In this document: positions 44,387 through 54,819 of the stretch, piece by piece
Position numbering within the stretch: the stretch's first letter is position 1
Layout: every line of letters starts with the position of its first letter
Assembly: GCA_009846005.1 (NCBI GenBank)
Contig: VXYL01000070.1
Coordinates: forward strand, 134,947 to 198,946
Direction: 5' to 3'
From: Gammaproteobacteria bacterium
GTDB lineage: Bacteria; Pseudomonadota; Gammaproteobacteria; Pseudomonadales; Azotimanducaceae
DNA: 64,000 bases
Translations under genes and position numbers: made by a program
Notes under the pieces: generated by a model
Databases searched by the model: none
Seen by the model: the letters and a program-made list of their open reading frames with translations, nothing else
Told to the model about the DNA's origin: nothing

Positions 44387-45574
44387 TCAGGCCTCCGTTC
44401 CAACGACGCCGGCTTCGACAAGACCGTCGATCTCCGGGCCGGCGAGGCCCAGATCGGACGCGAGCACCTCCCGGGAATTCGCGCCCAAGAGCGGTGCCGC
44501 CTTGATCGGCACCTCGCTTTCGGACAGCCGCGCCGGCCAGCCGAGCAGCTTGATCGGGCCGACTGTGGGATGTTCGAGTTCGTGCACGAAGCCGCGCTCG
44601 ACAAGGTGCGGATTCCGGTACAGGTCGCTGGTATCGAGCACCGCGCTGGCCGGTACGCCACCTTCCGCGAGTTCCCGCATCGCGTCGTACTTGCCCCGCT
44701 CAATCGTCCACTTGGCGATTTCGGCCTTGATCGCATCGCGGTTACGATAGCGGTCCCGGGGATCCTGGTAACGCGGGTCGTCGAACAGATCCTGGCGCCC
44801 GATCACCCGGCACAGCGCCTCCCACATGCGGCCCGTCACCGCCATGATGTAGACGTAGTCGTTCGCGCCGTCGCCCTTGCAAGGGTAGAGGCTCATGTTC
44901 GGCGTCGCACCATTGCCCGAGCGACCCACGGCCCGCTCCCCATAGCGGCCGCTGGCGGTGGCGGTGCGCAGGTAGTAGGTCATCGCCTCCTGCATGGAAA
45001 TCTCGATGAGCTGACCCTTGCCGGTGTTCAGCCTCTGCACGTAGGCGGAGACGATGGCGAGCGCCATCTGCACGCCCGTGCCGGCATCGCCGGTCGTTGG
45101 TCCAGGTCGCATCGGCGGTCCCTCGGCCTCGCCGGTGATCGAGAACGCACCCGCCGCCGACTGCGCCACCATGTCGAAACACTTGTAGTGCGACCACGGC
45201 CCGGATGTGCCGAAGCCCTTGATGCGACCGTAGATGATGTCGGACCTGACGGCCTTGCAGGCGGCGTAGTCGATGCCGAGTTTCTCGACGACGCCGGGGC
45301 CGTAGTTCTCCACGAAGACGTCGTAGTTCGGCAGCATGTCGAACAGCAGTTGCCGCCCGCGCGGCTTTGACAAGTCGAGGACGACACTGCGCTTGTTGGA
45401 GTTCCAGACCATGAAGTACTCGCTGCTGCCGCCGATGCCGCGACCGGGGTCGCCGTGACCGGGACGCTCCACCTTGACCACGTCGGCACCAAGCCAAGCC
45501 AAAGCCTGGGTGCAGGACGTTCCCGCTTCGTACTGCGTCATGTCCAAGACGCGCAATCCGTCAAGTGCTGGCAT
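44387..45574 (-). CDS. CaiB/BaiF CoA-transferase family protein
   Basis: Class III CoA transferase of 395 aa, paralogue of the copy at 41.3 kb. Seen: LRVLDMTQYEAGTSCTQALAWLGADVVKVERPGHGDPGR, NSNKRSVVLDLSKPRG, and the catalytic region SGPWSHYKCFDMVAQSAAGAFSITGEAEGPPMRPGPTTGDAGTG with the nucleophilic Asp before MVAQ. First gene of the CaiB-SDR-LLM-CaiB cluster. The two CoA-transferases could act on consecutive acids, or one may have changed substrate. Confidence 0.9.
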   Translation of the reverse strand: MPALDGLRVLDMTQYEAGTSCTQALAWLGADVVKVERPGHGDPGRGIGGSSEYFMVWNSNKRSVVLDLSKPRGRQLLFDMLPNYDVFVENYGPGVVEKLGIDYAACKAVRSDIIYGRIKGFGTSGPWSHYKCFDMVAQSAAGAFSITGEAEGPPMRPGPTTGDAGTGVQMALAIVSAYVQRLNTGKGQLIEISMQEAMTYYLRTATASGRYGERAVGRSGNGATPNMSLYPCKGDGANDYVYIMAVTGRMWEALCRVIGRQDLFDDPRYQDPRDRYRNRDAIKAEIAKWTIERGKYDAMRELAEGGVPASAVLDTSDLYRNPHLVERGFVHELEHPTVGPIKLLGWPARLSESEVPIKAAPLLGANSREVLASDLGLAGPEIDGLVEAGVVGTEA

Positions 45575-45592: not shown

Positions 45593-46063
45593 CTACAGGT
45601 GGTTCGCGAGGTCGTCCGCGATCTGGGCCGGCGTTACCCTGGGTTCGTAGCGGGCCACTACCCGCCCTTCGCCGTCGACGAGGAACTTGGTGAAGTTCCA
45701 GGCGATGTCGGGGTTGCCGTCGGATCGGGGCTGCTCGGACTTCAGGAAATCGTAGAGGCCGCAGGCGCCGTCGCCGTTCACCGCGATCTTGGCGAACATC
45801 TGGAAGTTGGCATCGTAGGTTGAGCGCGCGAATTCCAAGATCTCTTCGTTCGTGCCGGGTTCCTGACGACCGAACTGGTTGCAGGGGAATCCGAGCACCT
45901 TGACCGCACCGTTTTCTTCAAGGGTACGCAGACCTGCGTACTGGCGCGTCATCCCTCACTGACTTGCCAGGTTGACCACGAGACACGCGGCGCCCTTGTA
46001 CTTCTCGAAGCCGAGCGCTTCACCCGTGATGGTGTCCATGGTGAACTCGTGGAAACGCGCCAT
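45593..46063 (-). CDS. glutathione peroxidase, probable selenoprotein with in-frame UGA
   Basis: Glutathione-peroxidase-family protein of 156 residues if TGA at 45956-45958 is read as selenocysteine. ATG 46063 (MARFHEFTMDTITGEALGFE) lies 9 nt after GAGGGGGG. The peroxidatic Cys/Sec position in the pattern NxASxxG reads NLASQ-TGA-GMTRQYAGL. Downstream follow LGFPCNQFGRQEPG (the GPx signature with conserved Gln) and AWNFTKFLVDGEGRVVARY (Trp, Asn). Without recoding, translation would stop at 40 aa or restart at ATG 45952 with no catalytic residue. A SECIS-like hairpin lies 15-32 nt after the TGA. Nonsense mutation is the alternative. Confidence 0.85.
45924..45941 (-). promoter_or_regulatory. SECIS-like hairpin after in-frame UGA
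   Basis: On the coding strand GTACGCAG pairs perfectly with CTGCGTAC. The apical GCAGGTCTGC is identical to the apex of the E. coli fdhF SECIS (remembered, not searched). It begins 15 nt after the TGA codon, a distance within the range known for bacterial SECIS elements. Confidence 0.75.
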
Positions 46064-46225
46064 CTCGTCCATCCCCCCTCTGCTATTCTTCCTCAACGTC
46101 GGGAAACGTTGTCACTTGAATCGATTCTGATGCCGTCATGGTGTCTTTCGCTTGTCAGCCGAGTTACTACTCGCTGGCATTGGATAGCCGGTCGATTATT
46201 GCGAAGTGGAGTGGGTTAGCAAGTC

Positions 46226-47287
46226 ATGAGTGCCACCGAACTCACCCTGGACGAGAAACGACGCTTCCTCGCCGACGGCTTCATCGTCATCCGCGAAGCG
46301 GTACCCAGGGAACTGACCTTCCGGGCGCGACGCGCCGTCAACATGCATGCCGCACGGCAAGGCGTTCGCCGGCCCTACCACGACCTGGCCGGGGACAGCC
46401 CGCTTCCCGACCTCGTCAACAAGAGCCGCTTGGGCGAGATCATGCGCAACACCATGGGCCCCTACGATCCGCCGCAAACCGCGTTCGCCGCGGTTCTCTA
46501 TCCCCAGGCCGAGACCAAGGCGCCGAACTACGGCTGGCAACCCCACGTCGACGGGATGTGGTACTCGCCGGAACTGCCGTCGGCGGACGAGGTCGATTCC
46601 TGGGAAGCACCGCGAACGCACCACTTCGGCAAGGGTAACGCCACCGAGATGGGCGCCAACAAGACACCGTTCTTCCAGGATCCCGGGTGCACCTTGGCAC
46701 TCGGCAGCTTCACGGCGTTCGTCGGCGTCGCGCTCAACGATCAGACGGAGTTCGGCCGCGGCAACCTCTGCCTCCTCAAGGGCGCCCACGAGGACGTCGA
46801 GGCGTTCTTCCGCATGCAGCGCGATGCCGGGGGGAATGTCGGTCCGGAGGGTCCCGGATGGCCGCGGCTGGCACCGCGCAAGGACGGTGGCGTGTCGCTG
46901 ACTCCCATGCCACAGCCCGTGCGCGAGAAGTTCATCGCCGATGCGGAGGTCATCGATGGAGTCGCCTGGCCGGAACCAACGCCGATCCTGCTCGACGAGG
47001 GCGATGCCGTGATCGCCTTGCACGCCTGTCCCCACGGGGGAAGCGTCAATGCCGGGGCCGACCCGCGCATGAACATCTACTTCCGGCTACGCCACGAACG
47101 ACCCGGCGGCGCGACGGTCCTAGGCGACAGCGACCACCCGGACCGGGGCTGGGAGGGTGAGTTCCTCGACTACGCCGACGACTACGATCCGTGGCGGGTC
47201 GCGGTCGACGCCATGTGCGATCACTGGAGCGAATGGGACGGCATGGCGGACGTGGTGGCCCAAGCTCGCGGCGACGCCGAGGAGTAG
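46226..47287 (+). CDS. Phytanoyl-CoA dioxygenase (PhyH) family protein
   Basis: Fe(II)/2-oxoglutarate oxygenase of 353 aa. N-terminal LTLDEKRRFLADGFIVIREAVPRE is typical; the HxD metal motif is in WQPHVDGMWYSPE, and distal His/Arg in ALHACPHGGSVNAGADPRMNIYFRLRHERP. The paralogue at 53.7 kb shares the same architecture (a long insert with EGPGWPRL and a final DHPDRGWEGEFLDYADD), so these two form a distinct subgroup from the 11.4 and 25.4 kb copies. It diverges from the peroxidase gene across a 162-bp region. Confidence 0.86.
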   Translation: MSATELTLDEKRRFLADGFIVIREAVPRELTFRARRAVNMHAARQGVRRPYHDLAGDSPLPDLVNKSRLGEIMRNTMGPYDPPQTAFAAVLYPQAETKAPNYGWQPHVDGMWYSPELPSADEVDSWEAPRTHHFGKGNATEMGANKTPFFQDPGCTLALGSFTAFVGVALNDQTEFGRGNLCLLKGAHEDVEAFFRMQRDAGGNVGPEGPGWPRLAPRKDGGVSLTPMPQPVREKFIADAEVIDGVAWPEPTPILLDEGDAVIALHACPHGGSVNAGADPRMNIYFRLRHERPGGATVLGDSDHPDRGWEGEFLDYADDYDPWRVAVDAMCDHWSEWDGMADVVAQARGDAEE

Positions 47288-53706: not shown

Positions 53707-54819
53707 ATGACCCATTCGCTGACGCTGGAACAGAAACAAACGCTCTACGACGACGGCTACATCGTTCTGAAGAACGCCGTGTCGCAGGAACTCGTCGACG
53801 CCGCCATCGACCGCATCCGAAATCCCGAAGAGGGTGTCTACGCCGGCGGCACCAAGGAACTCACGGACCTCGTGAACGCCTCCACGGTCACGCCCATCCT
53901 TCACGAGGCGATGGGCTACTTCGATCCGCCCATCGTCTGCCAGGTAGGCGCGAACCGGGTGCGCAAACCCGGAGACCACTTCAACAACCTGGGCTACCGG
54001 GACAAGGACCAGCCCTACTACGGGGCGGAATCTCACATGGACGGGCTGTGCACCATCGGCGTGCCGCAGGACGTCCAAACAGGCACGCCGGATGAAATCT
54101 ACAACCACTACATCACGTCGGGTCCCAAGGGCGATATCGGGCGCAGTCCCGAGGTGATGGGCCACAACAGCGTGCCGTTGTTCGAAGATCCCGATATGAC
54201 CTTGGGAATGGGTAGCTTCACGGCGTTCGCGTTTGTTTGCCTAAGCGACCAGACCCGGGAAGGTTGCGGCCAGACCGCGCTTTTGCGAGGCGCTCATCAC
54301 GTCACCGAGAAGTTCTTCCAGTGGCAACGCTCCGTCAACGACTGCATCGGCCCCGAAGGCCCGGGCTGGCCCCGTCTCAACTACAACGCCACGAACCGCT
54401 GCGGACACGTCTACCTTCCGGAATCCGTCCGCGAGCAGTTCCTCGACGACACCTCCGAGGAAACCCCCGACGGCGTGCGCTGGCCGAGGCCCACGCAGGT
54501 GCTGATGGAACCGGGCGACGCGTGCATCACTCTCTTCCACATTCCGCATTCCGGTACCCGCAACGAAGGCACCGAAACCCGCATGAACATCATCTTCCGG
54601 ATCCGCAACAAGAAGCGGCAGCCGGACAAGATGGTCAACGGCATCTCGGACCACCCGGACAGGGGCCAGCGCGGCGAATGGCTGGAATACGAGGACGGTA
54701 ACAATCCCTGGGAACGTTCCAAGGACGCCCTGTGCGACATGTGGGACGAATGGGAGGGCATGAAATCGGTGGTCGAAGAGCGTCGAGGATCAACGATTGA
54801 CCGAGACTCGGTCTCGTGA
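53707..54819 (+). CDS. Phytanoyl-CoA dioxygenase (PhyH) family protein
   Basis: Probable Fe(II)/2-oxoglutarate oxygenase of 370 aa. ATG 53707 has a strong AAGGAGG. N-terminal LTLEQKQTLYDDGYIVLKNAVSQELV, HxD in ESHMDGLCT, and distal motif LFHIPHSGTRNEGTETRMNIIFRIRN. It is a paralogue of the 46.2-kb gene: both have EGPGWPRL, a GDS/GISDHPDRG motif and a Glu/Asp-rich C-terminal tail. Possibly in an operon with the preceding amidohydrolase. Confidence 0.87.
   Translation: MTHSLTLEQKQTLYDDGYIVLKNAVSQELVDAAIDRIRNPEEGVYAGGTKELTDLVNASTVTPILHEAMGYFDPPIVCQVGANRVRKPGDHFNNLGYRDKDQPYYGAESHMDGLCTIGVPQDVQTGTPDEIYNHYITSGPKGDIGRSPEVMGHNSVPLFEDPDMTLGMGSFTAFAFVCLSDQTREGCGQTALLRGAHHVTEKFFQWQRSVNDCIGPEGPGWPRLNYNATNRCGHVYLPESVREQFLDDTSEETPDGVRWPRPTQVLMEPGDACITLFHIPHSGTRNEGTETRMNIIFRIRNKKRQPDKMVNGISDHPDRGQRGEWLEYEDGNNPWERSKDALCDMWDEWEGMKSVVEERRGSTIDRDSVS

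Follow-up and report, generated by a model that had tools for sequence, protein, structure and literature searches.

A glutathione peroxidase gene with an in-frame TGA, very probably read as selenocysteine, and the Sec/Cys forms of its relatives

The glutathione peroxidase locus

The minus strand of the window, i.e., the whole 64,000-nucleotide stretch of DNA analysed here, carries a glutathione peroxidase (GPx) reading frame whose sole internal stop is a TGA at codon 36 (Table 1). A preliminary description, made from the letters alone, had called this frame complete apart from that TGA, and both our reading and the Pfam search bear this out, PF00255 (GSHPx) matching with 118 bits (cut-off 27) over profile positions 1 to 108 of 108. 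It had also placed the TGA exactly at the peroxidatic Cys/Sec position, which the aligned relatives confirm for codon 36, and had counted random lesions elsewhere in the gene among relatives against its reading; a second stop is absent from the frame 46063 to 45593.

Table 1. Features of the GPx locus (positions in the window)
Feature	Position	Strand	Basis
Sec-containing glutathione peroxidase CDS (predicted), 156 aa, U36	45593..46063	minus	frame reading, Pfam, relatives
In-frame TGA, predicted Sec at peroxidatic position; UxxT motif U36-G-M-T39	45956..45958	minus	reading, alignment
SECIS hairpin (predicted) GTACGCA-GGTC-TGCGTAC, within CDS	45924..45941	minus	folding, relatives' comparison
Alternative in-frame ATG start for GPx	46072	minus	reading
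Purine-rich GAGGGGGG, possible ribosome-binding site upstream of GPx start	46073..46080	minus	inference from sequence
CoA-transferase-like ORF, begins 18 nt past GPx stop	44387..45574	minus	ORF list

Residue 36, Q67, W122, and N123, which we take to be the GPx catalytic tetrad (Sec/Cys, Gln, Trp, Asn), are invariant in the alignments (A1, 19 sequences; A3, 40 sequences) and also align to GPX4. Moreover, a GPX4-type protein is the top solved-structure match of the sequence (E 7.6e-39), and the AlphaFold model is confident, with a mean pLDDT of 92.3. In the alignment of relatives, the protein is conserved on both sides of the TGA, including the 35 codons that precede it, and a start codon lies 34 or 35 codons 5' of the TGA in 29 of 30 loci, the remaining one (L038) having it at 39.

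The ORF that follows, which we assume to be CoA-transferase-like, is possibly cotranscribed with GPx, and a homolog of it lies in the fetched flank of 17 of the 37 TGA loci examined, our own locus counted. Elsewhere in the window, Rfam at gathering thresholds finds one tRNA, which ARAGORN assigns to tRNA-Leu, and two ORFs (46226-47287 and 53707-54819) are alike, resembling phytanoyl-CoA dioxygenases by eye.

The hairpin downstream of the TGA

The TGA is followed by a 7-bp stem closed by a GGTC tetraloop, the stem beginning 14 nt after the TGA. The preliminary description was right about a perfect stem but gave the spacing as 15 nt, and seven pairs is the realistic length since an eighth would leave a 2-nt loop. 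Its statement that the apex equals that of Escherichia coli fdhF holds true against the K-12 sequence, GCAGGTCTGC being identical in both. The hairpin agrees with the definition of bacterial SECIS elements given in a passage of PMC1088965, as it lies just 3' of the UGA and has a small apical loop with a G. The apex GCAGGTCTGC occurs once in the window, with 0.13 occurrences expected from shuffles. Perfect 7-bp stems follow 24 of the 1,369 TGA triplets of the window, counting both strands, any frame, 3- to 6-nt loops, and stem starts 6 to 23 nt downstream. The folding energy of the hairpin region is not significant either (z −0.60; 58 of 200 shuffles equally stable), nor is that of a 43-nt piece (z −1.58; 12 of 200), for which the best fold is a different structure. 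Since stems occur by chance and the folding energy is unremarkable, the case for the hairpin rests on comparison with relatives. In the genome to which the window belongs, a TGA followed by GCAGGTCTGC within 8 to 26 nt is found in two places, the GPx gene and an ORF on contig C80 that looks cytochrome b-like by eye; at the latter the TGA is out of frame, and we discarded it as chance because the reversed control pattern occurs in three places.

Among the relatives, standard pairing across the seven stem positions is seen in 875 of 917 cells of TGA loci versus 276 of 623 cells of Cys loci. The 131 TGA loci contain 11 hairpin variants, with the exact apex in 80 of them and a second apex type, GCC-GGGT-TGC with an unpaired top, in 34 (L040, L069, L072, and 31 more). 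Codon usage across the hairpin is constrained: for codons 41 to 46 the mean share of the top codon is 0.85, compared to 0.52 over 51 conserved codons elsewhere. This share reaches 0.94 to 1.0 at codons 41, 42, and 46, and codons 43 to 45 (0.70, 0.73, and 0.74) fall within the range of the conserved codons elsewhere (up to 0.76), which reflects the two apex types.

Among 111 distinct sequences, pair 22-31 is GC in 98, AU in 12, and the intermediate GU in 1, and the AU form alters two residues of the protein (QYAGLR to QYTGLC). This is the only one of the seven stem pairs with a two-sided change, and it represents few events because the sequences concerned are partly close relatives. The top pair is unpaired in 30 of the 111 sequences and another pair in 6. 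Sliding the 3' partner by −2 even gives a higher covariation score (0.149 versus 0.109) and more two-sided cells (30 versus 12), since the hairpin is nearly palindromic, and the numbers of pairs and of pair types that show change are no higher than in shuffles (398 of 500 as high). Hence, covariation alone would be modest evidence for the hairpin, and the codon constraint argues for it more strongly.

Selenocysteine machinery and the distribution of TGA and Cys forms

The assembly (4.96 Mb, 106 contigs, 97% complete) was searched for the sel genes, a check suggested beforehand. It turned up selB (377 bits, curated cut-off 242), selD (246 bits, curated cut-off 125), and tRNA-Sec (selC; 69.5 bits, over its curated cut-off, anticodon tca). 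A 454-aa ORF directly precedes selB and overlaps its start; from its place and sequence features, it is SelA-like. As selB itself terminates in TGA, this codon also serves as an ordinary stop in this genome. The tRNA-Sec (L010:42-135) is located right where contig C92 begins and selB (L003:1498-3476) right where C6 ends, and the two may be neighbours that the assembly has separated; the end of C6 and the start of C92 were compared for a shared stretch of more than 10 bases and none was found, so a selA-selB-selC array is not established.

A second TGA gene of this genome is SelW-like (L277:1495-1716, G000 contig C81), with one in-frame TGA in a CTSU (CxxU) motif and a possible hairpin 15 nt after it whose folding energy is not significant. 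In a family sample, 36 of 38 SelW-like matches, across 36 of 61 genomes, contain one TGA. FdhA was considered as a further selenoprotein of the genome and rejected, its frame having no stop and VCHSPT at what is presumably the Sec/Cys site, i.e., the Cys form. A passage of PMC1794560 gives FdhA as the only selenoprotein of those Sec-decoding Alphaproteobacteria, Betaproteobacteria, and Pseudomonadales that were known in 2006.

At E ≤ 0.001, 153 of the 200 genomes of the family sample have a GPx match, and the match contains one TGA in 123 of these 153; 23 others have an open frame, 2 are fragments beginning after codon 36, and 5 come without a detailed listing of their matches. In the phylum sample, for which the threshold was stricter than in the family sample (E ≤ 1e-30), 117 of 398 genomes have a match, and TGA is found only in our own genome, no stop being present within the GPx match of the 116 others. 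Among public genome contigs, 8 of the best 80 of at least 592 relatives carry the TGA, and the nearest titled record among the matches listed, the Gammaproteobacteria MAG IRC1_bin_7, has it as well. Four of the TGA loci among those best 80 (L079 to L082) bear the titles Acidimicrobiales/Acidimicrobiaceae (three) and Deltaproteobacteria (one), and their hairpin is the same or nearly the same as in the gene under study, which could reflect either transfer between phyla or misbinned contigs.

Of 222 loci, which were selected as relatives of the query and include duplicates (e.g., L053, L075, and L242), all but L243 and L244 span codon 36. In these 220 the codon is TGA in 131 and TGT or TGC in 89, and nothing else. 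Whether relatives carry Sec or Cys at this site had been proposed as a check, and they divide accordingly into those with TGA and the same or a similar hairpin and those with TGT/TGC and no conserved hairpin. At E ≤ 1e-62, selB is found in 159 of the 200 family genomes, in 100 of the 123 TGA genomes versus 20 of the 23 open-frame ones; since selB is widespread in the family, it does not separate the two groups. Of the 23 TGA genomes in which selB was not found at this threshold, many are incomplete drafts, although G104, for one, reaches 96% completeness.

Decoding of codon 36, Sec/Cys history, and known systems

Altogether, these results argue with high confidence that the gene encodes a GPx-family selenoprotein with Sec at codon 36. 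The preliminary description had reached the same view, a probable bacterial selenoprotein rather than a broken gene, which now gains support from the TGA and hairpin of relatives and from the Sec genes. A TGA lies one base from TGT or TGC and Cys homologs are common, which would fit a Cys-type GPx inactivated by a nonsense mutation or misread in sequencing. Such a broken gene is nonetheless hardly conceivable here: of the 153 family genomes with a match, 123 contain one TGA in it, so that the codon recurs in many other assemblies, it falls on codon 36 in all 131 TGA loci read, the frame has no second stop, the protein is conserved on both sides of the TGA, and the genome has Sec machinery genes.

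It is also very improbable that translation starts 3' of the TGA, at an ATG at 45952, and yields only a 119-aa peroxidase-like protein devoid of the active-site residue. This ORF appears in the mechanical ORF list, but the 35 codons 5' of the TGA are conserved as protein among relatives, and 29 of 30 loci start 34 or 35 codons before it. Equally improbable, in our view, is that UGA encodes Cys, Trp, or some other standard amino acid through a reassigned code or leaky read-through, under which the frame would likewise be open: selB of this genome ends in TGA, the single TGA falls on the redox residue, the apex matches fdhF, and a tRNA-Sec with a tca anticodon is present.

We therefore retain Sec at codon 36 and propose the following model. 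Bacteria ordinarily decode UGA through SelB and a SECIS within the reading frame. When the ribosome meets the UGA at codon 36, the mRNA hairpin just downstream would recruit SelB with Sec-tRNA(UCA), and Sec would be inserted rather than translation terminated, giving a 156-residue enzyme. The selenol of residue 36 would then reduce hydroperoxides, the chemistry expected of the family. A GPX4-like cycle, with one selenol that an external thiol or a Cys such as Cys101 reduces, seems more likely than a 36-79 disulfide cycle, because TGA relatives lack a Cys at residue 79 and GPX4 also has Ala there.

Residue 79, presumably the canonical resolving Cys position of Cys-type GPx, is Ala in 122, Val in 8, and Ser in 1 of the 131 TGA loci, in which residue 101 is Cys in 99, Ala in 23, Ser in 5, Asn in 2, Met in 1, and His in 1. 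Of the 89 Cys loci, 73 have Cys79, 16 have Ala or Val in its place, and 53 have His101. The 16 loci without Cys79 amount to 13 distinct sequences (L053 to L065), 12 of which have Cys101, and their hairpins are eroded, least so in L053, which keeps most of the hairpin sequence. After masking of residue 36, a quick tree was built from 125 of 242 distinct rows (82 of 127 Sec, all 13 Cys loci without Cys79, and 30 of 102 other Cys). One branch (SH-aLRT 96) separates the Sec sequences and these 13 from the ordinary Cys-GPx. On this tree seven changes of the Sec/Cys label are needed, only two of which are forced by well-supported branches alone, and no direction of change follows from the topology. 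The direction from Sec to Cys is favoured by what is left of the hairpin and by the lack of Cys79 in the 13 sequences, which suggests repeated Sec-to-Cys reversion within the Sec clade. As selB is found in 12 of these 13 genomes, in most of them the reversion did not follow selB loss. Of the 5 of these genomes that are in the SelW sample, G007 and G040 have a TGA SelW-like gene, and no SelW-like match was found there in G014, G019, and G058.

A more speculative and, on balance, doubtful reading is that the family has a distinct Sec-GPx lineage in which Cys79 is gone and its resolving role has passed to Cys101, which replaces the usual His; several branches would then have returned to Cys while keeping the rewired chemistry and mostly the Sec machinery. 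If true, giving up Sec would be decided gene by gene and not result from SelB loss. Annotation in which every TGA counts as a stop would leave this gene cut short or in two pieces. Within the family, a single enzyme occurs in many natural Sec/Cys pairs whose SECIS elements are eroding, in genomes most of which still possess selB, and this makes it well suited to asking why Sec is retained or abandoned.

Animal GPX4 is a Sec enzyme whose SECIS lies in the 3' UTR. It shares with the gene under study an Ala at the canonical resolving-Cys position, but has His at position 101 instead of Cys101, and here the predicted SECIS lies inside the reading frame. Bacterial Cys-type GPx have the family, Gln67, Trp122, and Asn123 in common with this gene and differ by a TGT/TGC codon 36, mostly Cys79 (73 of 89, these 89 including the 16 rows of in-clade relatives without Cys79), His101 (53 of 89), and no conserved hairpin. 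The SECIS of E. coli fdhF has the same apex, GCAGGTCTGC, with different stems below, and its apex starts 15 nt after the TGA, compared to 18 nt in the GPx gene.

Bacterial Sec-GPx have been in print since 2005. A passage of PMC1088965 describes five of them, each with UXXT and a bacterial SECIS element; the Sec-containing Gpx of Treponema denticola appears in a passage of PMC1794560, a table in PMC2398784 lists 40 in its GPx row, and PMC9312934 and PMC13188914 have entries as well. A figure legend of PMC1794560 also mentions structures resembling SECIS elements at the Cys codons of FdhA and HesB-like genes. Compared by description, the Sec-GPx from the Sargasso Sea, T. denticola, and the Global Ocean Sampling share with our gene, in the passages concerned (PMC1088965, PMC1794560, PMC2398784), the family, the peroxidatic Sec, UxxT, and a SECIS directly 3' of the UGA. 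The gene is thus a well-supported further case of an already known kind of bacterial Sec-GPx, to which the family-wide Sec/Cys history is a useful addition; unlike in the published cases, the Sec machinery genes are found here in the same genome, and TGA prevails in the sampled family.
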